Source: Chryseobacterium sp. MEBOG06 (lineage in GTDB: Bacteria; Bacteroidota; Bacteroidia; Flavobacteriales; Weeksellaceae). From it: a stretch of 64,000 bases of DNA. The position numbers were made by a program, and so were the translations under genes. How positions within the stretch are numbered: the stretch's first letter is position 1; each line of letters starts with the position of its first letter. The stretch is taken from contig NZ_CP084580.1 of the NCBI RefSeq assembly GCF_021869765.1, forward strand, positions 744,001 through 808,000, written 5' to 3'. Below the pieces are notes generated by a model. It had not been told where the DNA came from and did not search any database. It saw only the letters and a program-made list of their open reading frames with translations. Of the stretch, positions 44,416 to 57,518 are shown one piece after another.

Positions 44416-45131
44416 AAGAATTCTGGGCAGAACTTCCCCGTGCCAATGAAGATTTTCTGGGATCTATCAGAGACTGGAGAAATGTGCAGATCGCCTTGGA
44501 TGATGACACCATATGGCTGAAAGATTTTACAGAGGAGCAGGCAGTATCTTCGGAAATACACCAGTTTCCTGACTTTGTACTGTATGAGCTGCGCGACGGA
44601 CTTCTGTTTAGAAAAGGCGCTTTGGTTCCCAGTAAAAAGATGAGAACAGCCTTGCTTTGGATACCTATTGATAAAGCTTTGAAACTTACATTGCCGGTTT
44701 CTAATAACAACTATTTCGGAATCAGTGAGAAAGTTCAGATCAGCCTTATACAAAGTGATGAAGAAAAACCGGTAATAGGTTTACTGTGCAACATCGCTGA
44801 TATTAAAGAAAGTATGGCTGCAATACCTAAATTTAAACTTGAAAAAATACAATGGGTAGTCATAGGAGATAAAGCCCTGTTTGTGGGAACTCCATTATTA
44901 AGCCTTCCGGGAAAAACATATTGGACCAAAGATGGGCATTTACTGCCTTCCGGACTAGACTTTGAGTTTAAAAATGTAAGTATATTACTGCATCAAAGGT
45001 ATAATAAAGAGTCAGATGGATGGCTTTTATGGGATGAAAACGGAAGCTATTTTTCAATAAAAAAATCAGATTTCCGAGAGCTTTCCATAAGTTCATTTCG
45101 TCTTACTCAAAAATCTAAAGAATGGAATTAA
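44388..45131 (+). CDS. Accessory protein (bpX-type) of the MoxR-vWA system
   Basis: The 247-residue protein overlaps MoxR upstream and the vWA gene downstream. It has mixed beta structure with several Trp/Gly-rich strands (VWLLWDENGSYFSI type near the C-terminus). I do not see a catalytic motif. By order and size it fits the bpX0/bpX1-like components of the ternary system, but I cannot verify which one. Confidence 0.65.
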   Translation: MAEDSSKHIKEFWAELPRANEDFLGSIRDWRNVQIALDDDTIWLKDFTEEQAVSSEIHQFPDFVLYELRDGLLFRKGALVPSKKMRTALLWIPIDKALKLTLPVSNNNYFGISEKVQISLIQSDEEKPVIGLLCNIADIKESMAAIPKFKLEKIQWVVIGDKALFVGTPLLSLPGKTYWTKDGHLLPSGLDFEFKNVSILLHQRYNKESDGWLLWDENGSYFSIKKSDFRELSISSFRLTQKSKEWN

Positions 45132-47500
45132 AGGTATACTTCCAGTCCTATGAAAACTACTTCTGGGAATGGAAAACTGATGAAGATGTTCCCGGAGATT
45201 CCGGATATCATGAAAATAACCTTCTCTCGGTTCCGGGAGTAGGAGCTATTGCTTACAGACCCTATATAATGGAAATCCTAAAAGAACTTCAACCGCAGGG
45301 ATGGCCTCCATTTGGGGCATTGCTGATGGTTTTGTATGCTATGCAGGATGGATATATAGATTTTGAAGGCCCGTTGAGACGTACTGCTGATTTTTATAGA
45401 ATAGGGAATTTTGATTTCAATGCTGAAAAAGAAATTAAATTCCTTGAAAAGATAAAATTGCTTCCAAAAGTTTATAAACAAAAGCAGAACAGAGTTGTTC
45501 TTTTGCAGACCTTGTTTAAAAATGGACACAATAGAATATCTTCCGTGAATGCAGAGGCCATTCTGAAAATCTATTATAAAAGGCCACATGAAATTTCGGG
45601 GTGTGCGGAAAAGCTAAATGCAAACCCCACTGCTCTAAACAGAGATTTGAGCGCCTTAGATCTCAATAGGGAATTTCCAACTGTACAATCTATCATTGAT
45701 GCCATGAAAGGTATTATTGAAGAGCCGGAACTGGATGATGAGGTTGTACAGGAAGAAGCAACAGCAGATGCCGATAAAGATTTTATAAGAGAACTCATTG
45801 AAGAACCCAAAACATTTCAGGTGGGCAGCCTGATCAAAAGAATCTGGAGCGGCCTGAAAATTCCGATGCGCCATCTTTCTCCGGGAGAACAGCCTATTGG
45901 CGGAATCTCGGATATGACAAATAAAGGTGATTTCAACAGAATGCTTCTGTCTGAGTTTGCCAATGAAGATGAGGTTTTTATGAATCGTGTAGCTAATAAT
46001 GAAGCTCTTTACATTCAAAGAGAAATACCGCCTGAAGAAAATATTTTCGAAAGAATTATCCTTATCGATACATCCCTTAGAAATTGGGGAACCCCAAAAG
46101 TATTGGCTTTTGCATCAGCTATTGCCATTATCAAACATCCGAAAGCCCATTCAGAATGCCAAGTATTTGCGCTCGGCCAGGCAGAAATTTCTATCTCTTT
46201 AAACAAAGTGGAAGAGGTGGTTGAAAATCTGAATCAGGTAAGTCCTGTCTTGGAAGTTTCAGAAGCACTGGAGAAATTTTTTAAAGAAGAACATTCCGAA
46301 AAAGATATTGAAGTTTTTTTTATTACCCACCAGGAAAATATAGCTGATGAAAAGGTTCAGAAGGTCATTCATGAAAATAGAGACCGTCTCAGATTTTTGG
46401 TTACAACCGCTTCAGATGGGGAAATTAATTTTTATAAACACCATAAAGGAACAAGAAAGCATATTCAGAAAATAAAACTGCCATTACAGGAATTGTGGGC
46501 TAATCCGCCCAGACAAAAACAAACAGTCAATAATGTAAACAGTAAGAAAACCGACCTTCCGCAAAACTATCCGATCCTCTTTCCAACGCCGGTTAATAAA
46601 ATTGCTCAGTTTCTATATGAAGGAGAATTTTATATTCTGAGTGTCAAAAAGCAGCTGCTGAAAACCTACCTTTCTGATAATTATTACGACAGAAATTCCT
46701 ATGATTACTATAAAACATTCCATGGTTGTGAAGTTTTGTTTGATAATATTTCTGTAAAACCAAGAGGACAATTTGCTTTAGCCAAAAATAAACAACAGCA
46801 TTTTATACTATGCCAATATCAGCCTGATAAAAAATTAGTATCTAAGCTTAATATTAATACCAAAGAATATTCAGAACAGAATCTTACCGGATTGAATATT
46901 CCCGATTCATACAAGCTGATTTATTTTAGTAAAAACTTTTATCTGCATCAGCCAGAAAATCCACTGTATTACAAAATAAATATAGATGGAAATATTTCCC
47001 TTGAAACTATTTCCGGAAAAGACAAAGAGCTCGAAAGAAACAATACAAAAGCAGAAGCAGAGGTTGCCAAACTAAATAAAAACGGATTAAAGATTATCAG
47101 TAATTTTACCAAAATAGGAATCAACGAAAATCATAATATTGTCATTTCCGGCAATGTATTAGGAAGCCTGTATGAGAACGCATTGACCCTCCATAAGAAC
47201 CAATCTGATATTATCATACTTGCAGAACAGGATAAAAATAAATTTACTTTTCCAGATGGAAGTGAAATTGTTACCGATGCCCGGGGAATGCTTATTTTCA
47301 GAAGCAGTAACAAAGGAATTGAAGAGTTTTTTATCCCTTCTACCACTTATGGCCTGCTGTCTCTGGCTACCTATATTGAGTTCGGAGGAACAGAATATTA
47401 TCTTCCGGAACATCCCTTATTGAAAATAAAAACAATGGAAGATATGCGTTCCCGGTTTTTAAAAGCATTTATAGAACAGATCTTGGATTATGGAACTTAG
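45122..47500 (+). CDS. vWA-domain plus beta-propeller protein
   Basis: This is the largest gene of the operon (792 residues). An N-terminal helical part (about 1-230) is followed by a vWA-like domain (about 280-460). The metal site is degenerate (IILIDTSLRN, with DxS kept). After residue 480 the sequence becomes a series of beta strands with FYILSV and AREMLIF-type repeats, fitting a beta-propeller. In MoxR-vWA-beta-propeller systems the vWA protein is the partner of MoxR and the propeller binds a target. No signal peptide. Confidence 0.72.
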   Translation: MELKVYFQSYENYFWEWKTDEDVPGDSGYHENNLLSVPGVGAIAYRPYIMEILKELQPQGWPPFGALLMVLYAMQDGYIDFEGPLRRTADFYRIGNFDFNAEKEIKFLEKIKLLPKVYKQKQNRVVLLQTLFKNGHNRISSVNAEAILKIYYKRPHEISGCAEKLNANPTALNRDLSALDLNREFPTVQSIIDAMKGIIEEPELDDEVVQEEATADADKDFIRELIEEPKTFQVGSLIKRIWSGLKIPMRHLSPGEQPIGGISDMTNKGDFNRMLLSEFANEDEVFMNRVANNEALYIQREIPPEENIFERIILIDTSLRNWGTPKVLAFASAIAIIKHPKAHSECQVFALGQAEISISLNKVEEVVENLNQVSPVLEVSEALEKFFKEEHSEKDIEVFFITHQENIADEKVQKVIHENRDRLRFLVTTASDGEINFYKHHKGTRKHIQKIKLPLQELWANPPRQKQTVNNVNSKKTDLPQNYPILFPTPVNKIAQFLYEGEFYILSVKKQLLKTYLSDNYYDRNSYDYYKTFHGCEVLFDNISVKPRGQFALAKNKQQHFILCQYQPDKKLVSKLNINTKEYSEQNLTGLNIPDSYKLIYFSKNFYLHQPENPLYYKINIDGNISLETISGKDKELERNNTKAEAEVAKLNKNGLKIISNFTKIGINENHNIVISGNVLGSLYENALTLHKNQSDIIILAEQDKNKFTFPDGSEIVTDARGMLIFRSSNKGIEEFFIPSTTYGLLSLATYIEFGGTEYYLPEHPLLKIKTMEDMRSRFLKAFIEQILDYGT

Positions 47501-49187
47501 AATAAAACCTTTCCCGAAAAATAATTATCCAAGAAGAGGACTTTTGATCAGGGGCTCTTCCCCTGTGATATGGCTTCAGGAAATGGAAAAACTCAGCATA
47601 AAACTGAGTGGAGTAAAATCTTATGCTATTCCGGCAAATCTTCCCAATGAGTTATATGGGTGCTTTCTTGTTTTTGATGATCACGCTCCCCAGGAAATAG
47701 GAAAAAATGCTTATTTCCAGTGTGTAGATCACCGATTTTTTATTCCCGAAAACACTACTTTTTATCCTAAGATCAATCAGGAAGATTGGGAACTGCTTGA
47801 CGAATTTCTTTTGATAATGCATCCTGAGTTTGGACTGGTAAAACTATCCGAAGAAATTGATTGGATAGCCTTAATAAAAGAACCTGAAAAAACAGATGGA
47901 AGTATCAGAAAACCACTGAACGGAGTTGTCATTCCCCAGAAAATAGACCGCTATACCGTTGAGATGGATGATGAAAAAGTACTTCAGGCACTAGAGCCAT
48001 CTCAGACAGAAGAAGAATGGATGAACAACCTGCCTTTTGACCTGAAGAAAGTAATGGCAGGAAATAAAAAGGAAATAGAAAAATATTTAAAATATATTGA
48101 AAAATATCCTGACAGAGCCATAGAACTAGGGGTACCTTTAGATATCATGGGAACTTCCAGAGGAGATGGCTTTGGAAAATTTACCTGGCTGGGAGGATTG
48201 TTTGGAGGGAATTTTAATGGTAAAAAAGAGAGTGCCGGTACAAGAAATTTTCGTAGAATATTCTGGGCAGTTATTATTATTGCGATTCTTTTAAGAATAG
48301 TACTGCCATCGGAAAAAGATAAGGCTGGACAGGCAGAAACAGGTGTTTCTTCAGGAACTGTTGTGACAGATGCCGTAAAAGCTCCCTCAGACATGATTGC
48401 TTTTCAGTCTGGAATTTCAGAAATTGATCTCAAAATCGATTCTATTTACCATCAGAAAAGAAAAAAACTATCCAATGAACTCATTACCGCAGGTGTGGTA
48501 GAATCCAGAAACGAAAAAGAAAGAGAAAACTATAAAAAGTCCGGAGGAAGAAGCGTGGGCGAAATAGGTCAGGATATTGATAAACTGGGTAATAATGAGC
48601 AGCAGAGCAGAGATTCTCTCAAAACAATTTATACTAAAAAAATTAAAAAACATGTTGCCGGAAAAACGGAACAACTGAAACGCAGAATTTCGGATTCTCT
48701 GAAACAATATACCAGAGGACAGCCTGTAAATGGAGATGTTGTGAAATATATTTTAAAGAAAAAGCAGGTTTTAATGGAAGATTCCCTTGGAAAACTTTAC
48801 GGAACCTTCAATAATGCAGATCCTTCTTCAGCATCAGTCAAAAAATCTAAAGTAAAAGGAATGAGTACAGATAGCTCTCCACTAAAAAAAGAACCTCCGG
48901 TTACTGATATCCTGTATATGATTATCTTTATGATCGCTGCAGTCGGATTTTATTCCTTTTTCTTTAAAAATAAATCCGTAAACCTGGGTGGTGATCATGT
49001 ACCGGGATGGGTGAAATTAATTTTAATAGCAATACTTATCGCAATGCTGATCTATCTGTTTTACCCATTAGTAAAAATGTTTGGATATAACTGGTTTGTA
49101 TGGGCACTTGTTATAGGAGTAATGTTGCTGCTTTACCGTCTGTTCAGAGAAGATAAAACCATTTTAAACTCAGATGATGATGAATAA
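47490..49187 (+). CDS. Membrane protein of the MoxR-vWA system
   Basis: The 565-residue protein has a soluble N-terminus (about 1-240) and a transmembrane helix near 258-272. A coiled-coil-like charged region (about 300-455) and three more helices near 472-490, 505-525 and 528-548 follow. It overlaps both neighbours by about ten bases. It probably anchors the AAA+/vWA complex to the inner membrane. Not a family I can name. Confidence 0.68.
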   Translation: MELRIKPFPKNNYPRRGLLIRGSSPVIWLQEMEKLSIKLSGVKSYAIPANLPNELYGCFLVFDDHAPQEIGKNAYFQCVDHRFFIPENTTFYPKINQEDWELLDEFLLIMHPEFGLVKLSEEIDWIALIKEPEKTDGSIRKPLNGVVIPQKIDRYTVEMDDEKVLQALEPSQTEEEWMNNLPFDLKKVMAGNKKEIEKYLKYIEKYPDRAIELGVPLDIMGTSRGDGFGKFTWLGGLFGGNFNGKKESAGTRNFRRIFWAVIIIAILLRIVLPSEKDKAGQAETGVSSGTVVTDAVKAPSDMIAFQSGISEIDLKIDSIYHQKRKKLSNELITAGVVESRNEKERENYKKSGGRSVGEIGQDIDKLGNNEQQSRDSLKTIYTKKIKKHVAGKTEQLKRRISDSLKQYTRGQPVNGDVVKYILKKKQVLMEDSLGKLYGTFNNADPSSASVKKSKVKGMSTDSSPLKKEPPVTDILYMIIFMIAAVGFYSFFFKNKSVNLGGDHVPGWVKLILIAILIAMLIYLFYPLVKMFGYNWFVWALVIGVMLLLYRLFREDKTILNSDDDE

Positions 49188-50199
49188 ACAGAAATTTATA
49201 GACAAGTTTATGGCCGCTTTTGTACTGCTGGCCATATTTAAGCTCATCGGGATCGCAGCACAGCTTTTCCATGAAAGTTTCTGGAGTGTAGTTGGAACAC
49301 TGGCTATTTTTTTAGTAGTAGTCTTTATCATACTCCTTGTCATCACTTCCCTGAAAGCTAAAGAGAGAAATGAACGCAGCTCAGGAAAAAGAGGAAGCAG
49401 CGGGGGAAGCTTTTATCTGGAAAATGCGCTTTTCGACAGAATCAGAAGCAAATATGAAGAACTTGCCGAAAAATATATTGCTGAGAAAGACTATAAAAAA
49501 GCAGCAAGAGTTTATATGAACCTTCTTCAGGATAATTACAGAGGAGCCAAAACATTGGAAGATGGCGGATTTTATAATGAAGCAGCCGTTGTATATCTTA
49601 AGAAACTGAAAAATAAATCCGATGCTGCAGTCTGCTATGAAAAGGCTAAGCAATACAAAAAAGCCATCGATCTGTACAAAGAAATGGAACAAAAAGAAAA
49701 GGTAGGCGATCTGTATAAAGAGATCAATGATCTTAAAAATGCTCATACTTATTATCAAATGGTTGTTGATGATTATACAGCCAATAACCAGATGGTAAAA
49801 GCTTCTTTGATATATCGTAAAAAAATGGAAAAAACAGAAGAAGCCCAAAAAATACTATTGAAAGGCTGGGAAGAAGATAAAGATGCATTCAATTGTCTGA
49901 ATAATTATTTCGCTAATATTTTTGATATCAAAGAGCTGAAAACAGAAATTCGTGATTTATACAGAAAAACTCCTGATTACAGGAAGACCACTTATCTGGA
50001 TGCCATGAAACATGAATTTAGAAAAGATCCGAAACTGCAGGAAGTGACCAAAAATATCGCATATGAGATTATTGCTGAAAAAATAGGAACCCGTTCAGAA
50101 ATTGTTAATGAGCTGAAATACTTTAATCCGGATGATGGAGTAATCCTGAAAGATATTTCCAGATTTAAAACTGGACGTAACAAAATGTTCAGAAATTAA
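49174..50199 (+). CDS. Membrane-anchored TPR-like protein of the MoxR-vWA operon
   Basis: The 341-residue protein has two N-terminal transmembrane helices (about 12-32 and 38-62). It continues with helical TPR-like repeats: KYIAEKDYKKAARVYMNLL, GGFYNEAAVVYLKKLK and KAKQYKKAIDLYKEME. The C-terminal 130 residues are helical. This is the final gene of the operon and precedes the attenuator leaders by about 200 bases. Confidence 0.72.
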   Translation: MMMNKQKFIDKFMAAFVLLAIFKLIGIAAQLFHESFWSVVGTLAIFLVVVFIILLVITSLKAKERNERSSGKRGSSGGSFYLENALFDRIRSKYEELAEKYIAEKDYKKAARVYMNLLQDNYRGAKTLEDGGFYNEAAVVYLKKLKNKSDAAVCYEKAKQYKKAIDLYKEMEQKEKVGDLYKEINDLKNAHTYYQMVVDDYTANNQMVKASLIYRKKMEKTEEAQKILLKGWEEDKDAFNCLNNYFANIFDIKELKTEIRDLYRKTPDYRKTTYLDAMKHEFRKDPKLQEVTKNIAYEIIAEKIGTRSEIVNELKYFNPDDGVILKDISRFKTGRNKMFRN

Positions 50200-50398
50200 G
50201 ATTAAACCATTCAGTAACAAGCTTACTTTAATTAAAAATTGATTTTTTTAGTGTCCTGAAATACCATACAATTAAGTTAAAACTTTGAGTTTAAAAACTG
50301 AATTATAATTTTAACTTTTTATGATAACAATGAGCTTTGAAGCACATCATTGTATTACCCAGAGTTGTGAAAATTATAAAATAATAACAAAAAAGATT

Positions 50399-50406
50399 TA
50401 TCTTTG
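50399..50406 (+). promoter_or_regulatory. -7 box of leader 1
   Basis: TATCTTTG is a perfect TAnnTTTG match. The ATG of the small ORF is at 50419, 12 bases later. The expected transcript start is near 50412. No TTG at the standard distance is obvious. Confidence 0.6.
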
Positions 50407-50418
50407 CACCAGAAAATT

Positions 50419-50547
50419 ATGACAATACAAAGAGCACATATCAATGCAGAACTATTCGAAAGTCCTTCTAACAAAGGATTGTTCGGATATGATTGGATGA
50501 TATGGAATGAGGCGAAATGTGCTGACTTTGGAAATTATTTACTGTAA
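50419..50547 (+). CDS. Leader peptide 1 (42 aa) of a candidate attenuator
   Basis: The reading frame has ATG at 50419 and TAA at 50545-50547. The peptide uses 19 of the 20 amino acids (all but Val), including the rare Trp (two), Cys and His, and shares the motif GLFG with leader 2. Its stop precedes a terminator hairpin by about 30 bases. The segment TGAGGCG at 50508-50514 inside the ORF is complementary to the 5' arm of that hairpin (CGCCTCG, 50581-50587). This is the architecture of an amino-acid attenuator leader. A stable protein function is unlikely; its translation probably is the function. Tiny ORF, so medium confidence. Confidence 0.6.
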   Translation: MTIQRAHINAELFESPSNKGLFGYDWMIWNEAKCADFGNYLL

Positions 50548-50577
50548 ACTTGTAAAAATTTAATCAAAATACTGCAG

Positions 50578-50608
50578 AAACGCCTCGATTTTTCGAGGCG
50601 TTTTTTGT
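50578..50608 (+). terminator. Terminator of attenuator 1
   Basis: AACGCCTCGA and TCGAGGCGTT form a perfect 10-bp stem with a TTTT loop and a TTTTTT tail. It can be opened by pairing of the 5' arm with the leader ORF (50508-50514). Confidence 0.9.
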
Positions 50609-50697
50609 TTTTTAGGTCAGAAATTATTTAGAATGAAAAAAAATAACTATAAACATGAAAATTTTTTAATTAATAATGAAACTTTAATACGATAAAA

Positions 50698-50783
50698 TAG
50701 AGTGATAAGTAACCCGGTGAGAGACAGTCATTTAGGTAATTAAGACATCCGCAAAGTATTGCGGAGAGGAATTTTACACTCTA
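50698..50783 (+). ncRNA. Structured RNA between the two attenuators
   Basis: TAGAGTG (50698-50704) and CACTCTA (50777-50783) close the element with 7 bp. Inside is a perfect hairpin TCCGCAA-AGTA-TTGCGGA (50748-50765). It is tRNA-sized (86 nt) but has no T-loop or anticodon arm that I recognise. It may be a regulatory RNA or a degenerate tRNA-like molecule of the array. Confidence 0.45.
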
Positions 50784-50934
50784 AAAACAGGGGTTAATTA
50801 ACTGATTTTCAATTTGTTATATTTGATATTTATTTGCGAGTTAAAAAAAATCATATTTACTTTGCAACCGAAAATTGAAAGCAACAGGTTTTCAGGATTC
50901 AATTAAAAATAATTTAGAAACAAACAAAAATAAA

Positions 50935-51060
50935 ATGAAGCAATTACATAGCATATTCAATCAATATTCAGGACTATTCGGACAGGAGCCGGTAGGAAGT
51001 CTGTGTATTCTTGACAATGAAATGGTGGATAAAAGGTGCTTATATACGTGGGTCAGCTAA
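50935..51060 (+). CDS. Leader peptide 2 (41 aa) of a candidate attenuator
   Basis: I chose the ATG at 50935; an in-frame upstream extension lacks a standard start. The peptide uses 19 of 20 amino acids (all but Ala) and contains QYSGLFGQEP, sharing GLFG with leader 1. It includes two Cys, one Trp and one His, and codons that are rare in this AT-rich sequence (CCG, ACG, CTG, GTC). The ORF segment AGGTGCTT (51034-51041) is complementary over 8 bp, with one T-G pair, to AAGCGCCT at 51085-51092, the 5' arm of the terminator. The tRNA-like array begins right after that terminator. Confidence 0.6.
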   Translation: MKQLHSIFNQYSGLFGQEPVGSLCILDNEMVDKRCLYTWVS

Positions 51061-51084
51061 TGATCTCTTACGTTAAAATATATG

Positions 51085-51116
51085 AAGCGCCTCCCGAAAA
51101 GAGGCGCTTTTTTTTT
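51085..51116 (+). terminator. Terminator of attenuator 2
   Basis: AGCGCCTC and GAGGCGCT form an 8-bp stem with a CCGAAAA loop and eight T. It lies 25 bases after the leader stop, immediately in front of the first tRNA-like gene, so read-through would be needed to transcribe the array from this promoter. Confidence 0.9.
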
Positions 51117-51188
51117 GGTTTCTTTAGCTTATTTGGTAAAGCGCCGGTCTGTGGAACCGGAGAACAGGGTTCGATCCCGAAGATACCC
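51117..51188 (+). tRNA. tRNA-like, anticodon GTG (His), degenerate
   Basis: The anticodon arm CCGGT-CTGTGGA-ACCGG is perfect, with anticodon GTG at 51151-51153. A D-arm with TAGCTTATTTGG is recognisable. The acceptor pairs 6 of 7 (GGTTTCT/AGATACC). The T-stem has only two pairs next to TTCGATC. A weak T-arm makes it an unlikely functional tRNA-His. Confidence 0.6.
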
Positions 51189-51194
51189 CCAGTA

Positions 51195-51268
51195 GATCTC
51201 ATAGCTCAATTGGTTAGAATATCGGTCTGATACACCGAAGGTTGAAGGTTCGATTCCTTCTGAGATTA
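51195..51268 (+). tRNA. tRNA-like, anticodon GAT (Ile)
   Basis: The acceptor GATCTCA pairs with TGAGATT (7 of 7, one G-T). The anticodon arm is TCGGT-CTGATAC-ACCGA and the T-arm GAAGG-TTCGATT-CCTTC; both stems are perfect. The acceptor starts with a G-T pair and is AT-rich, and the loop has C at position 38, both unusual for a housekeeping tRNA. Confidence 0.7.
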
Positions 51269-51274
51269 CAAAAT

Positions 51275-51348
51275 GGTTCCGTAGCTCAACTGGATAGAGC
51301 ATGGGTTTTCTAAACCCAGGGTTAGAGGTTCAAATCCTCTCAGAATCA
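51275..51348 (+). tRNA. tRNA-like, anticodon TCT (Arg)
   Basis: The acceptor GGTTCCG/CAGAATC has one C-A mismatch. The anticodon arm TGGGT-TTTCTAA-ACCCA and T-arm AGAGG-TTCAAAT-CCTCT are perfect. Discriminator A is followed by CA. Confidence 0.7.
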
Positions 51349-51357
51349 CAAAAGAAA

Positions 51358-51414
51358 GGTTCATGGAAAGCTTCCGATCCGGCTGTCTCCCGGAAAAGAA
51401 ATGGAAATGAACCC
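51358..51414 (+). tRNA. Minimal tRNA-like lacking a T-arm, anticodon GTC (Asp)
   Basis: The acceptor GGTTCAT/ATGAACC is perfect. A mini D-hairpin GGAA-AGC-TTCC and the anticodon arm TCCGG-CTGTCTC-CCGGA follow. The region that should be the T-arm is only a short A-rich linker. The total is about 57 nt, close to armless mitochondrial tRNAs. Confidence 0.6.
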
Positions 51415-51419
51415 CAAAG

Positions 51420-51491
51420 CTGGAAAGATAACGGTGGTTGTTTACCCGTCTTGGACGCGGGAGGTCGCAAGTTCGAATCTTGCTTTTCAGA
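51420..51491 (+). tRNA. tRNA-like, anticodon TGG (Pro)
   Basis: The acceptor CTGGAAA/TTTTCAG pairs 7 of 7 with one G-T. The anticodon arm CCCGT-CTTGGAC-GCGGG has one wobble pair. The T-arm GCAAG-TTCGAAT-CTTGC is perfect. Confidence 0.7.
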
Positions 51492-51497
51492 CTATTT

Positions 51498-51569
51498 GTT
51501 CCATTAGCATAGTGGTAAGTGCATTCGGCTTTCTACCGAACGACAAGGGTTCAAATCCCTTATGGAATA
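51498..51569 (+). tRNA. tRNA-like, anticodon TTC (Glu)
   Basis: The acceptor GTTCCAT/ATGGAAT has a terminal G-T pair. The anticodon arm TTCGG-CTTTCTA-CCGAA and T-arm AAGGG-TTCAAAT-CCCTT are perfect. Confidence 0.75.
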
Positions 51570-51574
51570 CAAAA

Positions 51575-51646
51575 GATTTTGTAGCTCAATGGCAGAGCAC
51601 CGGTCTGTTAAACCGGAAGTTGAAAGTTCGAATCTTTCCAAAATCG
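51575..51646 (+). tRNA. tRNA-like, anticodon GTT (Asn)
   Basis: The acceptor GATTTTG/CAAAATC, anticodon arm CCGGT-CTGTTAA-ACCGG and T-arm GAAAG-TTCGAAT-CTTTC are all perfect. The discriminator is G, as in many tRNA-Asn, so it may well be aminoacylatable. Confidence 0.75.
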
Positions 51647-51680
51647 CAGATAAAATGTTAATTGTTTCAGGAGAAAAAGA

Positions 51681-51740
51681 AAAAGTTTGTCGAGAGCAGA
51701 AGATCTTTACGCCAAACACGAAAAATACAGACAGACTTTT
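51681..51740 (+). ncRNA. Array element A, copy 1
   Basis: AAAAGTTTGTC (51681-51691) pairs with GACAGACTTTT (51730-51740) over 11 bp. The interior begins GAGAGCAGAAGATCTTTA, shared with the other copies. Four more copies are in the array. No known RNA family was recognised. Confidence 0.65.
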
Positions 51741-51797
51741 CTTGATCTCATTAAAAAACAGTTAGAATTAAAAAATATCATTTATAAAATTTTAGGT

Positions 51798-51863
51798 AAA
51801 AATAAAGCTTGTTAAGCGCAGAAGTTCTTATATCAAACGAAAATTAAAACAGGCTTTATTTTT
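51798..51863 (+). ncRNA. Array element A, copy 2
   Basis: AAAAATAAAGC pairs with GCTTTATTTTT and the next bases TTGTT with AACAG. The core AAGCGCAGAAGTTCTTATA is shared. The long A/T outer stem with a T run may also end transcription. Confidence 0.6.
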
Positions 51864-51921
51864 TATGAAATAATAAAAGTGGGGAAAAGAGTACTCACAA
51901 ATTATAATTGATAATCAATCT

Positions 51922-52003
51922 GATGGTTCGCCGAAGTGGAAGAGTCGGGGTGGTCTGCAAAACCGCTGTATAAACTGAGTGGGTTTGAATCCCATAACCA
52001 TCT
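51922..52003 (+). tRNA. tRNA-like, anticodon GCA (Cys), with an extended variable arm
   Basis: The acceptor GATGGTT/AACCATC is perfect. The anticodon arm GTGGT-CTGCAAA-ACCGC has one T-G pair, and the T-arm is GTGGG-TTTGAAT-CCCAT. The discriminator T is typical of tRNA-Cys. The variable region is longer than usual. Confidence 0.68.
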
Positions 52004-52041
52004 CAAATAACTAAAATGAGATTAGTTCCGGAGAATAAATA

Positions 52042-52095
52042 AAAGTTTGTCGAGCATAGAAGTTCTTATATTAAAAAAAAATTAAGACAAACTTT
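52042..52095 (+). ncRNA. Array element A, copy 3
   Basis: AAAGTTTGTC and GACAAACTTT form a perfect 10-bp stem, with an outer GGAG/CTCC that may extend it. The core GAGCATAGAAGTTCTTATA is close to copy 2. Confidence 0.65.
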
Positions 52096-52111
52096 ATTAA
52101 CTCCATCGAAA

Positions 52112-52138
52112 AATCAGTTGCTGTAAAAATGACTGATT
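52112..52138 (+). repeat. Short hairpin in the array spacer
   Basis: AATCAGT and ACTGATT form a 7-bp stem around a 13-base loop, between element A copy 3 and the interrupted tRNA-like gene. Confidence 0.4.
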
Positions 52139-52151
52139 GCTCATGAAAACC

Positions 52152-52287
52152 GGAAGTACGCCGACGTTGGAGAGTCGGGGCAGACTGATATGAGGAACGA
52201 ATTGAACGATTCCTTAAAAAAATGAAGAAATACAAAGTTAAAATCTGTTGCTTCATTGCTGAGTAGGTTCGAATCCTGCTACTTCCA
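52152..52287 (+). tRNA. tRNA-like interrupted by a 52-nt insertion in the anticodon loop
   Basis: The acceptor GGAAGTA/TACTTCC is perfect. A type II-like D-arm and variable arm are present, and the T-arm GTAGG-TTCGAAT-CCTGC has one T-G pair. The anticodon stem GCAGA/TCTGT is interrupted: CTGA is followed by 52 bases (52189-52240) before AAA. Without the insert the loop would be CTGAAAA with anticodon GAA (Phe). Other registers could give Tyr. The insert contains a hairpin AGGAACG/CGATTCCT with a bulged A. It is far shorter than group I introns. Confidence 0.55.
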
Positions 52288-52292
52288 CTATA

Positions 52293-52364
52293 CCGCTGAT
52301 AATGTAATGGCAGCATGCAGGAAATGTACTCTTGTTGTTTAGGTTCGATTCCTGGTCAGTTGGT
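52293..52364 (+). tRNA. tRNA-like, anticodon TGT (Thr?), degenerate
   Basis: The T-arm TTAGG-TTCGATT-CCTGG and anticodon stem CAGGA/TCTTG are present, but the loop AATGTAC lacks the universal T33. The acceptor CCGCTGA/TCAGTTGG has a bulge. Assignment as Thr is uncertain. Confidence 0.45.
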
Positions 52365-52369
52365 TTATT

Positions 52370-52441
52370 ACTCTATTCGTCTAACGGTTAGGACGCCTGC
52401 CTTTCGAGCAGAAAATAAGGGTTCGATTCCCTTATAGAGTA
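52370..52441 (+). tRNA. tRNA-like, anticodon TTC (Glu), second copy
   Basis: The acceptor ACTCTAT/ATAGAGT is perfect. The anticodon stem CTGC/GCAG has 4 pairs plus a C-A mismatch, with loop CTTTCGA. The T-arm AAGGG-TTCGATT-CCCTT is perfect. It is diverged from the Glu copy at 51498. Confidence 0.68.
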
Positions 52442-52446
52442 CAGGA

Positions 52447-52528
52447 TGTGAATGAACTGGTCAATCTTGAATTAATACTAATACCATGAAAGTTCAGATT
52501 AGAAAAAATTGATCAGTCACCATTCACA
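52447..52528 (+). ncRNA. tRNA-sized structured RNA without canonical arms
   Basis: TGTGAATG pairs with CATTCACA (8 bp) at the ends. Inside, ACTGGTCAATCTT can pair with AAAATTGATCAGT. It ends in A followed by CA, like neighbouring tRNA-like genes. No T-loop or anticodon arm is evident. Confidence 0.4.
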
Positions 52529-52539
52529 CAAAACAAGAA

Positions 52540-52607
52540 AAGAGAAGAGGTCTGTCAAGCACAGAAGATCTTTAGTCAAATATAAACACAGACAGCCTTT
52601 TTCTTTC
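52540..52607 (+). ncRNA. Array element A, copy 4
   Basis: The stem AGGTCTGTC/GACAGCCT has one bulged T and extends into AAGAGAAG/TTTTCTTT. The core AAGCACAGAAGATCTTTAG agrees with copies 1 and 5. Confidence 0.6.
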
Positions 52608-52683
52608 TTGAAATAAAAAATAGAAGTAGATGGTGATAACTGTTGAACGGTTATTAATCAGTATTTATAAAAATTAGGAAAAA

Positions 52684-52762
52684 GAGAAAGATTTGTCCGG
52701 AGCAGAAGATCTTTACAAAACAAATACTATTGGCATAGTTTATTAATAGACAGAGCTTTCTC
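52684..52762 (+). ncRNA. Array element A, copy 5
   Basis: GAGAAAGATTTGTC and GACAGAGCTTTCTC pair over 13 of 14 bases. The core GGAGCAGAAGATCTTTAC is nearly identical to copy 1. Its interior is longer because of an extra A/T-rich segment. Confidence 0.62.
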
Positions 52763-52777
52763 AAACCTAAAAAAACT

Positions 52778-52853
52778 GCGGGAATGGTGGAATGGCAGAC
52801 ACTCTTGATTTAGGATCAAGCTTTTGGGGGTTCGAATCCCCCTTCCCGTACCA
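52778..52853 (+). tRNA. tRNA-like, anticodon TAG (Leu), with encoded CCA
   Basis: The acceptor GCGGGAA/TTCCCGT starts with a G-T pair. The anticodon arm is CTTGA-TTTAGGA-TCAAG and the T-arm GGGGG-TTCGAAT-CCCCC. The 3' end carries A then CCA. It lacks the long variable arm normal for tRNA-Leu, which is odd. Confidence 0.7.
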
Positions 52854-52886
52854 TGATAAATGATAAAAAATTATCAGTTATTCCCT

Positions 52887-52959
52887 GGAAGAGTGGTGTA
52901 CAAGGTGTGCACGTTAGTCTGAAAAACTAAAGGTACAGGTTCGATTCCTGTCTGTTCCA
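52887..52959 (+). tRNA. tRNA-like, anticodon GAA (Phe)
   Basis: The acceptor GGAAGAG/CTGTTCC has one mismatch. A D-hairpin GTGTAC/GTGCAC, an anticodon arm TTAGT-CTGAAAA-ACTAA and a T-arm ACAGG-TTCGATT-CCTGT are present. It is the last member of the array. Confidence 0.68.
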
Positions 52960-53142
52960 CAAAATATTTTACTTCGATATGATAATGTCAGCATTACAGT
53001 TTCAAAAACTAAACTAAAGTAGGCATGAAAAATCAAGCTTGAATTTTAAATATAAGTTAGAAGCTAAAAGGCAGAGAAAATCTGCCAGTCAATTATTTAT
53101 CAATAATCATTTATTAATTATCAAAAAAAATATGTAGAAAAA

Positions 53143-53628
53143 ATGGAAACGCAACAACAAACATGGCAGAATATGAATGGAAAAATTTTCCAGGACTCTA
53201 TCACACAGCTGGTAGAAAAAGCCATTATCCGCGAACAGGCACACGGACATCGTCTGAAAGTATGTGTGGGATCAGATTCCCATGTATATGGAGAAGCCAT
53301 CAATTATGCTACGGCAGTAGTATTTATTCGTGAAGGAAAAGGAGCGTTTACCTTTATTAGAAAAGAAAGAGAAATACAGAGTATCAGTATCAAAGAGCGA
53401 ATGTTGAATGAAGTAAACAAATCCGTAGAAATCGCATACGCTATCTGCTCTCTGTTGGAAACTTATGGAGTAGAAATGGAGGTACACGCAGACATCAATA
53501 CCGATCCGGATTTCAAATCCAATGTTGCTTTGAAAGACGCAATGGGATATATTCTGGGAATGGGGTATGTGTTTAAAGCAAAACCTTTTGCTTTCGCAAG
53601 TTCCAACTGTGCTGATATGATGGTATAA
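53143..53628 (+). CDS. Ribonuclease H-like protein (YkuK/DUF458 family)
   Basis: The 161-residue protein resembles YkuK-type RNase H folds: VCVGSDSHVYG near residue 45 carries the first Asp, EMEVHADINTDP near residue 112 the second, and the C-terminus has another acidic residue (NCADMMV). It follows the array by about 180 bases. Family members are poorly characterised; an RNA-processing role here is inference. Confidence 0.8.
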   Translation: METQQQTWQNMNGKIFQDSITQLVEKAIIREQAHGHRLKVCVGSDSHVYGEAINYATAVVFIREGKGAFTFIRKEREIQSISIKERMLNEVNKSVEIAYAICSLLETYGVEMEVHADINTDPDFKSNVALKDAMGYILGMGYVFKAKPFAFASSNCADMMV

Positions 53629-53716
53629 AATAACCGGAGATCTGAAGCTGGAATTTTTTGCAGTATATTATTAATTTTCTGCATCCAGCTTTAGGCATCT
53701 ATCCAAAAAAAGACTA

Positions 53717-54529
53717 ATGAAAACAATTTTAATCATTAACGGAGAAAAATACTGGAAAGATTATTTTGCCGGATATGAGGTAGTTCAGAAGAAAGTTCAA
53801 ACCTCAGAATTTATCGTAAAAGATTCTTCATTATATGTTGTTGATGCAGAAGGAGTCTGCAAACCGGATGTAATTTTTTGGAGGTTGGGAGCTGTAAATC
53901 CTGAAGCAAAGCACAGAAGCATTTTGGAATTGATTGACTATGCCGGAGTTCCATGTGTGAACTCAGCTTCAACGCTATTAATAGGATACGACAGATTATC
54001 AATGCTAAATAAATTAAAAAGACTAGAATTACCTGTTGTTGAATTTAATGCAGCCACAGCAATTACTCAGCTGAAAAACCTGGAAATGACATTTCCTTTT
54101 GTAATTAAAGTGGGAAACCATCACGGTGGATATGGTAAGAGCTTAGTTTCGAACGAAGAACAGTGGGAAGAATTGAAAGATTTGCTTTTCATTCACCAGA
54201 ATTATGTGACAGTTGAGAAATTTATCAATTATCAAAATGACATTCGTTATCTCGCTATCAATGATAAAGTCTGGGCAATGAAAAGAAAAGGCAGGTATTG
54301 GAAAGCTAATTCTCTGACTCAGGAATATCATATGATTGAACCGGAAAAAGAATGGATAGAAAAAATAAAACTTTTACAGGAAAACATTAAAGCAGATATT
54401 GTGGCTATTGATATACTGGAAACAGAAAACGGGAAAAAAATAATTGTAGAATATAATGATATTCCAGGTCTCTCAGGATTTCCTGAAGATGTAAAACTGG
54501 AATTATCTGATATAGTAAAAAATAAATAA
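53717..54529 (+). CDS. ATP-grasp protein 1 (RimK-like)
   Basis: The 270-residue protein has an N-terminal pre-ATP-grasp domain. The ATP-grasp region follows with FVIKVGNHHGGYGKSLV near residue 135 and a metal-binding Glu/Asn in IVEYNDIPGLSGF near the end. Such enzymes ligate a carboxylate to an amine, often on peptides. First of three consecutive ATP-grasp genes. Confidence 0.82.
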   Translation: MKTILIINGEKYWKDYFAGYEVVQKKVQTSEFIVKDSSLYVVDAEGVCKPDVIFWRLGAVNPEAKHRSILELIDYAGVPCVNSASTLLIGYDRLSMLNKLKRLELPVVEFNAATAITQLKNLEMTFPFVIKVGNHHGGYGKSLVSNEEQWEELKDLLFIHQNYVTVEKFINYQNDIRYLAINDKVWAMKRKGRYWKANSLTQEYHMIEPEKEWIEKIKLLQENIKADIVAIDILETENGKKIIVEYNDIPGLSGFPEDVKLELSDIVKNK

Positions 54530-54553
54530 AAGAACCTTCAAAAAGTAATAACC

Positions 54554-55330
54554 ATGTTTTTTTTAGTTCAGGCTAATATATACCTAGATCCCGATCATTA
54601 TAAAATTTTTGATGCTCTGAAAGAGTTAAATATTGATTATGAGGTCATTAATATTCCTCCGGGCGCAGAAAGAATAGATTTCGAAACAGACCGGAAAAAT
54701 GTTTTTGTGTATGGTTCGGTGACAATTGCACGATTGGCTAAACAAAATTCAGGCTGGTTTCCCGGTTCTTTTTATGGAGGCAACCACTTGTATGAAGTGT
54801 ATTCACAATATTATGGTGAGAATCTTCTTAATCACAAGGTTTGTATTCATAGAATTTCTGAACAATTAAACTGGAAAGAAGGTGAAAAGAAATTCATCAA
54901 ACCTTACAATGAAGCAAAGATTTTTACAGGAAAAGTATTTACAGAAATAGAATGGAAAGATTTTGTTTTTGAATCACTGGAAAGCGAATCCAACAGAATT
55001 ACAGAGCAATCTTTAGTTCAGGTTTCAAAAGCAAAACAAACTATAAAAGAAGCCAGACTTTGGATTGTAGGTGGACAAATTATCGATGGGGGATATTATA
55101 AATTTAATGATAATGCTCCTTTTGAAGAAACGGTTTCAGATGACGGATTAATTTTCGCCAATAAGATGATTGAGCTTTACAATCTTGAAGAAGCTTTTGT
55201 AATGGATATTTGTTTAATGAATGAAGGCTGGAAAATTGTTGAAATAAACTGTATCAACAGTTCTGGATTTTATCCCAATACCAACGTGAAAAGTATAATC
55301 AAAGCTTTAGATATCTACTTTTCAAAATAA
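54554..55330 (+). CDS. ATP-grasp protein 2 (R2K clade-like, DUF4343)
   Basis: The 258-residue protein fits the R2K-type short ATP-grasp: VNVFVYGSVTIARL-like strand near 55, ARLWIVGGQIIDGGYYKF near residue 175 and the metal-ligand region VEINCINSSGFYP near the C-terminus. R2K ATP-grasps are reported in RNA-repair and conflict gene clusters. The start lies 24 bases after the first ATP-grasp gene. Confidence 0.75.
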   Translation: MFFLVQANIYLDPDHYKIFDALKELNIDYEVINIPPGAERIDFETDRKNVFVYGSVTIARLAKQNSGWFPGSFYGGNHLYEVYSQYYGENLLNHKVCIHRISEQLNWKEGEKKFIKPYNEAKIFTGKVFTEIEWKDFVFESLESESNRITEQSLVQVSKAKQTIKEARLWIVGGQIIDGGYYKFNDNAPFEETVSDDGLIFANKMIELYNLEEAFVMDICLMNEGWKIVEINCINSSGFYPNTNVKSIIKALDIYFSK

Positions 55331-55341
55331 AAACTAACAAC

Positions 55342-56127
55342 ATGACTCATAATAGAATAGCCGTTATCGGTTTACACGAACAGGAATATGAATATATAAG
55401 GAAACATTTTGACGGCCTTATGATCTGGCACGAGTCGATTCCGAAGATAAAAGTAATTAACGGAATATTGTATGTTGAAAAAGCCCAGGGAGCAGGAATG
55501 CTTCCGGTAGACAAAGTGGTATACCATGGAATTTTTGAAGATGATCTTGATTTTATAGCCGGACTGGCACTGTGGAACGGACCGTGTTTTCCAAACGCTT
55601 ACGGAATGTTGGACTGCAGATTGAAAATTCCTTGTCTGGCGAAGGCAATGAAATATTCAAAATTCAATTCTCCAAGAGGATTTATTTCTGCAGGTGCTTA
55701 TGTGAATACAGACACAGAATTGGTCGCCAAATGGGGCAACTGGCATTGTGGAGAAAACAAATATAAGTTCACAGGAAGTTGGCAAGCTTCAGAAAACAGC
55801 GTTTTGGAACCTTATTTTGAAGGAGAAGCCGTAAGAATTTTAAACATTGGTGAAAAATCATGGCAGATAAAGCTGGAAGGAGACACATGGCTAAAATCCA
55901 TTCATCCCGATGATGCCCAATTTACAGAAACAGATGCGGAACTTTTACAAGATACGCTCACGCTGAAAGAAAAAATGGGGATGGATGTCATAGCCAATGA
56001 CTATATCGTTCAAAAAGACGGAACCAGGCATTTGCTGGAGATCAATCATATTCCGAATATTACGAGATTTGAAGAAGTAAGACTACACTTTTTAAAAACT
56101 GTGGTAGAATGGATTTTTAAAAATTAA
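55342..56127 (+). CDS. ATP-grasp protein 3
   Basis: The 261-residue protein has the same short ATP-grasp length, with a C-terminal metal-binding motif HLLEINHIPNITRF, and shares the region WQIKLEGDTW. It is coupled to the previous gene (11-base gap) and to the next (3-base gap). It could form a complex with the other two ATP-grasp proteins. Confidence 0.75.
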   Translation: MTHNRIAVIGLHEQEYEYIRKHFDGLMIWHESIPKIKVINGILYVEKAQGAGMLPVDKVVYHGIFEDDLDFIAGLALWNGPCFPNAYGMLDCRLKIPCLAKAMKYSKFNSPRGFISAGAYVNTDTELVAKWGNWHCGENKYKFTGSWQASENSVLEPYFEGEAVRILNIGEKSWQIKLEGDTWLKSIHPDDAQFTETDAELLQDTLTLKEKMGMDVIANDYIVQKDGTRHLLEINHIPNITRFEEVRLHFLKTVVEWIFKN

Positions 56128-56130
56128 ATA

Positions 56131-56508
56131 ATGGAAATTACAAAAAGATTATTGTTTCTGGACGATATAAGATACCCTGTTGAAGCGTATCAGTACACCA
56201 AACAGGAGATATTCCTCAGAAATGACTGGCATATCATTCGGAATTACGAACAGTTTGTCAACAGTATTTTGGAAAAAGGGCTTCCGGAAATGATCTCTTT
56301 TGACCATGATCTTGCAGATAACCATAATCTTAATCAGGATACTCAGCAATATGGAGAAAAAACAGGATATGACTGTGCAAAATGGCTCATAGAATATTGT
56401 ATGGATCATTATTTAGACTTGCCAAAGTTCTATTGCCACTCCATGAATCCTGTAGGAAAGGAAAATATTCAAAGCCTTTTAAAAAATTTTAAAGAACAAA
56501 AAAAATGA
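56131..56508 (+). CDS. Cyclic-phosphate processing receiver domain protein
   Basis: The 125-residue single-domain protein starts with LLFLDDIRYPVEA and has SFDHDLADNHNLNQ and FYCHSMNPVGKENI, the acidic and His residues of the cpPRD family. Family members are predicted to open or process 2',3'-cyclic phosphates on RNA. It overlaps the RNA ligase gene by four bases, which fits an end-healing partner of a ligase. Confidence 0.82.
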   Translation: MEITKRLLFLDDIRYPVEAYQYTKQEIFLRNDWHIIRNYEQFVNSILEKGLPEMISFDHDLADNHNLNQDTQQYGEKTGYDCAKWLIEYCMDHYLDLPKFYCHSMNPVGKENIQSLLKNFKEQKK

Positions 56509-57518
56509 TTTTCAAAACATATAACACTATAGAAAATGCTTACCAGGCCCGGGTGATCGAACAGATCAGGCTGCAGGGCTATGGGGATGAGGTTTTCATC
56601 GTGCAGGAGAAAGTTCATGGAGCTAATTTCTCTTTCTTTACCGATGGAAAGGAGATTAAAATTGCGAAAAGAACTGCTTTCATCGAAAAAGATGAAAAAT
56701 TTTTCAATGCACATCAAATTTTGGAGCGTTACAGAAAAAATGTAATTAAAGCGTTTCAAAAGGTAAAAACCATATATCCGGATATTGAAACCATAGTGAT
56801 CTATGGTGAATTGTTCGGCAGCGGTTACAAACATAAAGAAGTAGAACCGGTAAAAGATGCTGTGAAAGTGCAAAAAGGGATTGAATATGCACCTTACAAC
56901 GAATTTTATGCCTTCGATATTAAGTTGAACGGAGTGACCTACATGGATACAGATATCATCAACCAAATTTTCGAAGAAACAGGTTTTTTCTATGCTAAAA
57001 CATTGTTTCAGGGTACTTTGGAAGAAGCTTTGAAGTTTCCAAATGTTTTTAATTCTAAAATTCCAACCTGGTTGGGATTCCCGGAATTAAACAATATGTG
57101 TGAAGGAACCATCATAAAAACTTTGAAAACCAAATATTTTGGAAACGGTGCAAGGGTCATTCTGAAAAATAAGAATGAAAAATGGATAGAAAAATCAAAG
57201 ATGATAAAAAAAACGGCAAAAACTGCTCAAAAGCCAGTTCATTTTAGTGAAAAAGCTCAGCATATCTGGGACGAAATCCAACAATATGCTACAGTAAACA
57301 GATTGAACAATGTTGTGAGTAAAGTTGGCGAATTCGAACCCAAAATTATAGGAAAAGTAATCGGCCTTTTTGCAAAGGATATTTTCGGAGATTTTGAAAA
57401 AGACTTCCCGGCCGCTTTTACAATTATTGAAAAAGAAGAGCAGAAAAGGATCAACAAAAAGTTGAATTCTTTAGTGGTTGATATTGTAAATGAAGAATTA
57501 ATTTCAGCAAAAGTGTAG
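56505..57518 (+). CDS. RNA ligase (Rnl2-like)
   Basis: The 337-residue nucleotidyltransferase has motif I EKVHGANFSF, with Lys in KVHG near residue 36. IVIYGELFGSGY is the motif III region near residue 104, and EGTIIKTLKTKY lies near residue 205. A C-terminal helical extension follows. The ligase seals 3'-OH to 5'-phosphate RNA ends after AMP activation. Overlap with the cpPRD gene and vicinity to the tRNA-like array suggest repair of cleaved tRNA. Confidence 0.88.
   Translation: MIFKTYNTIENAYQARVIEQIRLQGYGDEVFIVQEKVHGANFSFFTDGKEIKIAKRTAFIEKDEKFFNAHQILERYRKNVIKAFQKVKTIYPDIETIVIYGELFGSGYKHKEVEPVKDAVKVQKGIEYAPYNEFYAFDIKLNGVTYMDTDIINQIFEETGFFYAKTLFQGTLEEALKFPNVFNSKIPTWLGFPELNNMCEGTIIKTLKTKYFGNGARVILKNKNEKWIEKSKMIKKTAKTAQKPVHFSEKAQHIWDEIQQYATVNRLNNVVSKVGEFEPKIIGKVIGLFAKDIFGDFEKDFPAAFTIIEKEEQKRINKKLNSLVVDIVNEELISAKV

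Follow-up and report, generated by a model that had tools for sequence, protein, structure and literature searches.

In textbook cases, transcription attenuators sense one amino acid or a few; the trp, his, and phe leaders are attenuators of amino-acid biosynthesis, and classical attenuators sense tRNA charging. Here we analyzed a 64-kb window (the whole stretch of DNA under study) drawn from the 5.29-Mb genome of Chryseobacterium sp. MEBOG06, in which two small open reading frames (ORFs), leader 1 and leader 2, stand ahead of an array of tRNA-like sequences and a set of RNA-repair-type genes. Like the amino-acid attenuators, both leaders combine a short ORF beside a promoter with an ORF-linked segment that competes with a terminator arm. 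In contrast to the amino-acid attenuators, the leaders contain no run of a single amino acid, sample most or nearly all tRNAs, and lack a predicted protector hairpin, and the sequences downstream are tRNA-like RNAs and genes of RNA-repair type. We consider it likely that leaders 1 and 2 are ribosome-operated attenuators, acting as tRNA-census switches that open transcription into the array and the repair genes when any one tRNA is lacking.

Other described systems share parts of this arrangement. The Bacillus subtilis BmrC/BmrD leader (PMC4191407) and the Escherichia coli TopAI-YjhQ upstream open reading frame (uORF) (PMC12121999) are reported to be antibiotic-sensing uORF attenuators. A ribosome stall in a small ORF controls a translation-stress response in these systems, as predicted here for the leaders; the antibiotic-sensing uORFs detect ribosome-targeting drugs, whereas codon choice in the present leaders is constrained to cover the tRNA pool. 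The rtcBA RNA-repair operon is controlled by RtcR, a CARF-domain activator that binds tRNA halves (PMC7790460). An RNA-repair operon turned on by tRNA damage is also what we propose here, but here a missing tRNA would be sensed in cis by the ribosome, unaided by a regulator protein, and no Pfam match to RtcR, RtcB, or RtcA was found in the 16 proteins of positions 42632 to 60914 and four more that were scanned. The Anabaena trn operon is a multi-tRNA array that stays silent until translational stress activates it; it differs in being controlled by the protein repressor TrcR, and the word "leader" is absent from the main text of that report (PMC10272220). There are precedents for attenuators, for antibiotic-sensing uORFs, for RtcR-controlled repair, and for stress-induced tRNA arrays; in the literature searched, none was found that joins these elements or employs a full-coverage leader. 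No description of an all-amino-acid attenuator, nor of Chryseobacterium tRNA genes with an RNA ligase operon, was found among open-access titles and the beginnings of abstracts. Two known leader classes were considered and rejected: the Rfam Phe_leader family (RF01859) gave the best subthreshold match to leader 1 at 36.9 bits against a gathering score of 55, and no T-box was present among the 12 Rfam matches of the window at gathering score or the 16 matches at E values up to 2 within 50380 to 51120.

Leader 1 comprises 42 codons (50419 to 50547) and leader 2 comprises 41 (50935 to 51060), and each encodes 19 of the 20 amino acids, Val being absent from the former and Ala from the latter, exactly as a first-pass annotation of this DNA had reported. 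All promoters, leaders, and terminators described here, together with the array and the genes past it, are on the forward (+) strand. Each leader has a conserved promoter-like box of its own. Leader 1 is preceded by promoter 1, with a -7 box TATCTTTG at 50399 to 50406 that is of the Bacteroidetes TAnnTTTG type, and this motif occurs in the last 40 nucleotides (nt) of 117 of 118 distinct upstream stretches; the TTACTTTGC box of promoter 2 (50857 to 50865) is found in all 119 distinct stretches upstream of leader 2. Strong terminators, noticed already in the first-pass annotation, follow at 50579 to 50602 (5′ arm 50579 to 50587, with a T run after it; -16.6 kcal/mol) and at 51084 to 51109 (5′ arm AAGCGCCTC; -14.9 kcal/mol), 31 and 23 nt past the respective stop codons. 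A scan of the window for ORFs of 25 to 80 codons and terminators (15 on the forward and 4 on the reverse strand) yielded five ORF-terminator pairs, among which only leaders 1 and 2 reach 19 amino acids, the others having 16, 18, and 16.

In both leaders, a segment within the ORF, region 2, can pair with the 5′ arm of the terminator and would form the 5′ strand of an antiterminator. Region 2 of leader 1 (50508 to 50523) contains the TGAGGCG core at 50508 to 50514, which is complementary to CGCCTCG at 50581 to 50587, and region 2 of leader 2 (AGGTGCTTATATA, 51034 to 51046) contains AGGTGCTT at 51034 to 51041, facing AAGCGCCT at 51085 to 51092. The first-pass annotation had placed these four segments correctly, and the predicted duplexes are longer than it proposed. 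Folding of six leader types (the present two and the four diverged leaders A1, A2, B1, and B2 introduced below) predicts that, in nascent RNA extending to the terminator loop, a segment from the final third of the ORF is paired with the 5′ arm of the terminator. With the ribosome edge set at 15 nt, an assumption from general knowledge, the antiterminator is predicted when the A-site codon lies no further than about codon 26 in leader 1, 29 in leader 2, and 23, 31, 23, and 25 in A1, A2, B1, and B2, with a dip at codons 15 to 17 of B1. The predicted sensors are thereby codons 1 to 26 of leader 1 (78 nt, 50419 to 50496) and codons 1 to 29 of leader 2 (50935 to 51021). Leaders 1 and 2 combine a short ORF at the predicted transcript start and a terminator just after it with a competing antiterminator, which folding predicts for all six leaders, as expected of ribosome-mediated attenuators. 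The pairings are well conserved: 82 of 93 distinct leader-1 segments keep all six core pairs and the other 11 keep five, while 109 of 111 distinct leader-2 segments keep all seven and the other two keep six. When region 2 of leader 1 is slid by 3 or 6 nt, at most four of the six pairs remain. In leader 2, a U of the ORF segment faces either a G (AGCGCCT, 92 of 111) or an A (AGCACCT, 18 of 111) of the arm, and one arm reads TGCGCCT. The terminators are conserved as well, with the inner six pairs of terminator 1 in 93/93 distinct segments and seven pairs of terminator 2 in 110/111.

The codon content of the sensors was compared across a survey of 144 overlapping sources (the window, 60 genus genomes, three genomes of another genus of the same family, here g3, and 80 named contigs). 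Many sources represent the same assembly, so counts are given as distinct peptides or DNA sequences, and the totals of 133 and 137 loci used below still include repeats. Codons were sorted into 24 isoacceptor groups, assuming from general knowledge that Leu, Ser, and Arg each split in two and Ile splits into ATA and ATY; background codons and windows came from 24 genes of the window, some of which belong to this system, and served for the diverged leaders as well. The codon tests used leader-1 ORFs of exactly 42 codons, represented by 114 distinct DNA tips, of which 103 also have the control gene described below. Over the whole ORF, 18 to 20 different amino acids occur in each of 97 distinct 42-residue leader-1 peptides. 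A content of 19 of 20 in 42 codons occurs in 2% of real 42-residue windows and would occur in 5% if residues were independent, which makes it only moderately rare, and the whole-ORF amino-acid count was rejected as the main statistic for being too weak. The sensor is much more distinctive. Codons 1 to 26 encode 16 amino acids in 4 of the 97 distinct peptides, 17 in 11, 18 in 30, 19 in 29, and all 20 in 23, against a maximum of 18 in 10,614 real 26-codon windows. At 26 of the 133 loci, corresponding to 11 distinct DNA sequences, these 26 codons represent all 24 isoacceptor groups, while the maximum among 10,590 real windows is 21 and the chance under independent codons is 1.4e-9. The MEBOG06 leader 1 has 18 amino acids and 21 groups in this stretch, a number of groups reached by 4 of the 10,590 real windows and with a chance of 1.7e-4 under independent codons. 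Leader 1 holds 22.1 groups versus a mean of 20.4 in synonymous redraws of the same peptides. Where an amino acid with two groups occurs at least twice, both groups are used in 89 of 93 cases for Leu (56 expected), 89 of 89 for Ser (39 expected), 36 of 38 for Arg (16 expected), and 92 of 93 for Ile (40 expected), counts that come from related sequences and are therefore nonindependent. The leader 2 sensor of the window contains 16 amino acids and 19 groups (chance 0.05).

Because shared descent makes the coverage counts dependent, a tree-based test was used, in which the tree was built from DNA outside the sensor and group-changing substitutions were examined for whether they remove a group less often than the same changes would on other ancestral backgrounds sharing that state. 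In the leader-1 sensor, substitutions average -0.22 to -0.25 groups per change versus -0.40 to -0.41 expected (z = 7.4 to 7.6, 114 sequences), and only 40 to 41% of the changes strike a group represented by a single codon, although such singleton sites make up 71 to 73%. The control gene (49174 to 50199, without Pfam match and located between an upstream operon and leader 1) gave z values of -0.05 ± 1.0, with a maximum of 1.87, in 34 overlapping windows on the same tree. The compensation peaks at codons 1 to 26 (z = 7.4), the boundary that folding had given beforehand, and is lower for codons 1 to 20 (3.6 to 4.2), 1 to 28 (6.3), 1 to 30 (4.7 to 4.8), and 27 to 42 (1.0). Grouping by isoacceptor gives a z of 7.4 versus 2.7 for grouping by amino acid; isoacceptors are guarded more than amino acids, which favors tRNA loss over amino-acid starvation as the sensed condition. 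None of 200 random codon partitions reaches 7.4 (mean 1.3, maximum 5.5). Leader-1 peptides also carry 19.48 amino acids on average versus 19.14 ± 0.05 in column shuffles; for leader 2, shuffles within clades gave P values of 0.085 and 0.044, and the tail of leader 2 shows no compensation (z = -1.1 in the 41-codon form and -0.1 in the 45-codon form). These results support, on statistical grounds, selection on leader 1 to keep the isoacceptors represented, a stronger statement for this leader than the near-complete sampling of tRNAs that the first-pass annotation had claimed for both, whereas the leader 2 sensor is less complete.

We propose that a ribosome stalling for want of a tRNA in codons 1 to 26 of leader 1 or codons 1 to 29 of leader 2 would leave region 2 to pair with the emerging 5′ arm of the terminator, so that, as folding predicts, the terminator would fail to form in time. 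A ribosome that proceeds into region 2 would instead open this segment and free the arm for the terminator. The trigger would be the loss of usable tRNA, whether cleaved, unrepaired, or uncharged, and the output would be read-through to the tRNA-like RNAs and the RNA-repair enzymes. If leader translation stopped altogether or were absent, the region should likewise turn on by read-through, because no protector (1:2) hairpin is predicted; the antiterminator remains the dominant nascent structure even when the ORF is unoccupied from nt 16 onward. The RNA ligase, the cREC protein, and the tRNA-like RNAs downstream favor damage repair where they are present, and the array could possibly supply decoys, replacements, or repair substrates. 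On balance, but with less assurance than for the attenuators themselves, we lean toward a cis-acting check of the whole tRNA pool in Chryseobacterium and a second family, in which a leader of about 26 codons is selected to include a codon from every one of the 24 groups, and the loss of any tRNA, for example to an anticodon nuclease, frees tRNA look-alikes and repair enzymes without a sensor protein. If this is correct, a leader that reads every tRNA would turn the parts of an attenuator into a global damage alarm and would explain what prompts RNA-repair systems that lack an RtcR-like activator. A single 78-nt sequence would then yield a testable prediction for each isoacceptor group, and a search rule consisting of a minimal full-coverage ORF, a terminator, and an internal pairing could find such alarms elsewhere.

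The second family is represented by two genomes (g30) of the same order, in which this layout recurs in four diverged leaders. In these genomes, 14 and 16 tRNA calls lie ahead of a 65%-identical RNaseH_like gene with two leader ORFs and terminators (A1 and A2), and a second leader pair (B1 and B2) is found approximately 20 kb away, ahead of an Rnl2-type ligase, in a cluster that includes two RlaP RNA-repair genes in the one genome scanned. The four leaders have 38 codons and 19 amino acids (A1), 43 and 18 (A2), 37 and 19 (B1), and 34 and 16 (B2), with the start codons of A2 and B2 being our own choice; their terminators begin 23 to 30 nt past the stop codon, region 2 lies within the last third of the ORF, and by eye they share little sequence with the Chryseobacterium leaders. 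A1 covers 20 isoacceptor groups in 23 codons, a value matched by 2 of 10,662 real windows; B1 covers 18 groups in 23 codons (75 of 10,662) and A2 covers 19 groups in 31 codons (465 of 10,470). Another g30 genome (G175) had no RNaseH_like match at an E value of 1e-25.

Several observations weigh against the tRNA-census interpretation. The leader 2 sensor encodes only 14 to 19 amino acids in 110 distinct peptides, with Trp missing from 104 and Thr from 76 of them, and, of 111 distinct pairs, only 47 reach 20 of 20 amino acids with the two sensors united, Trp being the usual gap (52 pairs). Compensation in the leader 2 sensor is modest, with z values of 2.9 (41-codon form, 69 tips) and 1.8 (45-codon form, 18 tips), and B2 of g30 is ordinary, with 14 amino acids and 15 groups in 25 codons. 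Even for leader 1, random partitions average a z of 1.3 and part of the 7.4 is therefore not tRNA specific; the compensation is uneven among clades, at only 1.5 in the SLNL clade (51 tips) and 4.9 in the rest (63 tips), and column shuffles within the two leader-1 clades gave P values of 0.105 and 0.002. The pairing itself exceeds that of codon-permuted ORFs weakly in each leader, with P values for the six leaders of 0.047, 0.15, 0.043, 0.17, 0.22, and 0.36 for folding and 0.042, 0.14, 0.006, 0.23, 0.12, and 0.18 for the duplex, which combine by Fisher's method over the six leaders to 0.016 and 0.002, respectively. The equilibrium fold of the full RNA favors the terminator (0.86 to 0.97), and antitermination would therefore have to be kinetic, as is generally the case in attenuators. 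The region-2 core of leader 1 ends 30 nt before the stop codon, and a ribosome at a stop codon, with its usual footprint, would not cover a sequence 30 nt upstream. Region 2 thus lies behind the ribosome at the stop codon, the classical masking step is not simply transferable, and termination in a healthy cell must rest on the timing of ribosome and polymerase or on following ribosomes. The layout that the first-pass annotation called classic holds for the ORF, the terminator, and the predicted competing pairing, and departs from the classical scheme in this masking step and in the protector hairpin. The ratio of nonsynonymous to synonymous substitution rates (dN/dS) is mixed, ranging from 0.14 to 2.2 by segment. 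Finally, the Rnl2-type ligase is absent from the 7 kb past the RNaseH_like gene in 16 of 74 named loci, and in one whole-genome draw it was present in 16 of 29 genus genomes and absent from 13; RNA repair is therefore not a constant output, and the downstream RNA-repair genes of the first-pass annotation are borne out in the window and only in part of the genus.

The leaders may instead be general translation-stress attenuators that respond whenever ribosomes slow down or are lost, through ribosome-binding drugs, damaged rRNA, or failed initiation, in the manner of BmrB or the TopAI-YjhQ uORF, with the wide codon choice providing equal sensitivity everywhere. Their anatomy would be the same, the predicted default without translation is indeed the antiterminator, antibiotic-sensing uORF attenuators are well known, and the inducible tRNA array of Anabaena responds to translational stress (PMC10272220). 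Such attenuators would leave unexplained why Leu, Ser, Arg, and Ile each retain both of their groups and why the last codon for a tRNA is spared, and we regard this explanation as unlikely. A general-control type of attenuation, in which the leaders detect starvation for any missing amino acid and the array and genes constitute the starvation response, would suit the near-complete amino-acid sets and the charging sensed by classical attenuators. It is quite improbable given the clearly stronger constraint on isoacceptors and the genes downstream in the window, which encode RNA ligases, a cyclic-phosphate receiver, and an RNaseH-like protein alongside the tRNA-like RNAs and include none for amino-acid biosynthesis.

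We give equally little credence to the ORFs being functional small proteins, with terminators that end short transcripts and an array served by its own promoter. Purifying selection does act on parts of the leaders (dN/dS of 0.14 in codons 2 to 12 of leader 2 and 0.44 in codons 15 to 30 of leader 1), and leader 1 is 42 residues long in 97 of 100 distinct peptides; however, dN/dS is 1.1 in the middle of leader 2, and the g30 leaders have the layout in common with them, as three of the four do the wide composition, but by eye little of the sequence. The first tRNA-like sequence of the window begins 8 nt past the terminator-2 hairpin, and 120 of 137 loci share this 10-nt bin, which leaves little room for an array promoter. 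Chance, in the form of an unusual neutral composition of one ancestral leader kept by descent, is scarcely credible. The genus sequences are indeed related by descent, and 19 of 20 amino acids in 42 codons alone is a 2 to 5% event by chance, but the control windows of the compensation test lie near a z of 0, 24 of 24 groups are reached in 11 distinct sequences, and wide coverage recurs in A1 and B1 of g30.

The tRNA-census attenuator, as formulated in the first-pass annotation, would be at odds with relatives that lack the ORFs or the pairing, and it survived this comparison: leader-1 DNA was found in 142 of 148 genus genomes and the RNaseH_like gene in 141, with both absent from five. The remaining three cases are a genome (G039) in which the leader was not found and the RNaseH_like match begins 61 nt from a contig end, one (G123, 73% complete) in which RNaseH_like was not found and both leaders are open, and one (G067, 99% complete) in which leader-1 DNA is kept but reads as frameshifted with a mismatched terminator, and in which no RNaseH_like match and no tRNA call was obtained within the 14 kb fetched. 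Each leader was found in 137 of the 144 surveyed sources, as 100 distinct leader-1 and 110 distinct leader-2 peptides, and both together in 134 sources (116 distinct). Four sources are cut contigs; the ORF pattern missed leader 1 in L084, L172, and L199, although L084 and L199 do carry it with an altered start, and missed leader 2 in L041, L078, and L224, although it is seen in L041 and L078. The frame, start, and length of the ORFs are conserved, with translation predicted from sequence, and both leaders of the Chryseobacterium type occur in the g3 genomes. The leader-2 pairing codons are nearly without synonymous variation (AGG in 68, TGC in 65, TTA in 67, and TAT in 66 of 68). The GLFG motif, whose conservation the first-pass annotation had expected, gives way to GSFG, FAYD, or FVYD in many relatives and was rejected as a needed motif. 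The label "penicillin-binding protein" is attached by NCBI to 9 of 27 leader-1 peptide matches (P0010 to P0027), apparently a misannotation that has spread. The spacer from terminator 1 to promoter 2 measures 231 to 234 nt in all 104 distinct genus sequences passing the filter and carries a conserved element, TGAGAGACAGTCATTTAGGTA, with a small hairpin (50718 to 50769 in the window, forward strand); no Rfam match overlaps this element, and a similar one is present in g30.

The array past terminator 2 (51117 to 52960) comprises 10 ARAGORN calls in the window. Across 137 loci, such arrays contain 1 to 18 tRNA-like sequences (median 13), all 1,615 on the same strand. In the genus arrays, Ala, Gly, and Val anticodons were called in 0 of 137 loci, while Glu, Pro, His, Cys, and Leu(TAG) anticodons were called in 109 to 120, and one g30 array carries a Gly look-alike; the species missing from the arrays may point to the tRNAs attacked in nature. 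A repeat of approximately 37 to 62 nt, with a core like GCAGAAGATCTTTA, occurs in five copies between the tRNA-like sequences (51674, 51796, 52034, 52539, and 52680, spanning 51674 to 52716) and is possibly a structured small RNA family of its own. By eye, positions 52140 to 52290 hold a further tRNA-like stretch that ARAGORN does not call, with an apparent insertion of approximately 75 nt.

The first gene past the array encodes the RNaseH_like protein (PF04308, 53143 to 53628), followed by a variable cargo (53717 to 58161) of ATP-grasp genes, cREC_REC (56131), a T4 Rnl2-type RNA ligase (56505), and an RLIG1-like gene (57520). Of the 74 named loci fetched by their RNaseH_like gene, 64 contain cREC and 58 contain Rnl2. 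In the class-level draw, RNaseH_like matches were found in 75 of 395 genomes; outside the genus and g30, 40 of 71 were fetched and none has an adjoining tRNA array, with tRNA calls at least 4 kb away in three, and 15 regions with low-similarity RNaseH_like homologues from the order-level draw had no array. Rnl2 was found in 5 of the 395 genomes of the class, three of them outside the known groups (G660, G533, and G714). No leader of this type was found in a wide fetch of G660 (L300), nor in G284 or in G324, which by eye has Rnl2 with a bpX4-like gene. The plasmids searched gave no match, and the phages searched gave only ligases of <60% identity.

Directly upstream of the control gene is a bpX (MoxR-vWA-beta-propeller) operon with bpX4, bpMoxR, bpX2, bpX0/bpX1, and bpX3 (42632 to 49187). 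No tRNA-census leader was found for such ternary systems in the literature searched, including passages of PMC7159879. Ro60-type TROVE and Band 7 proteins are linked with RNA repair elsewhere, and one or the other is encoded in some of the cargo past the RNaseH_like gene (L183, 9598 to 11115; L190, 12406 to 13503; L269, 1588 to 2688). The window also contains a second tRNA-like group (34960 to 37555, with tRNA-like sequences at 35046 and 37484) beside genes for a 640-amino-acid protein and a Sir2 protein, and a similar g30 locus (L295) has tRNA-like sequences at 9125, 10578, and 10667 together with a 645-amino-acid protein.

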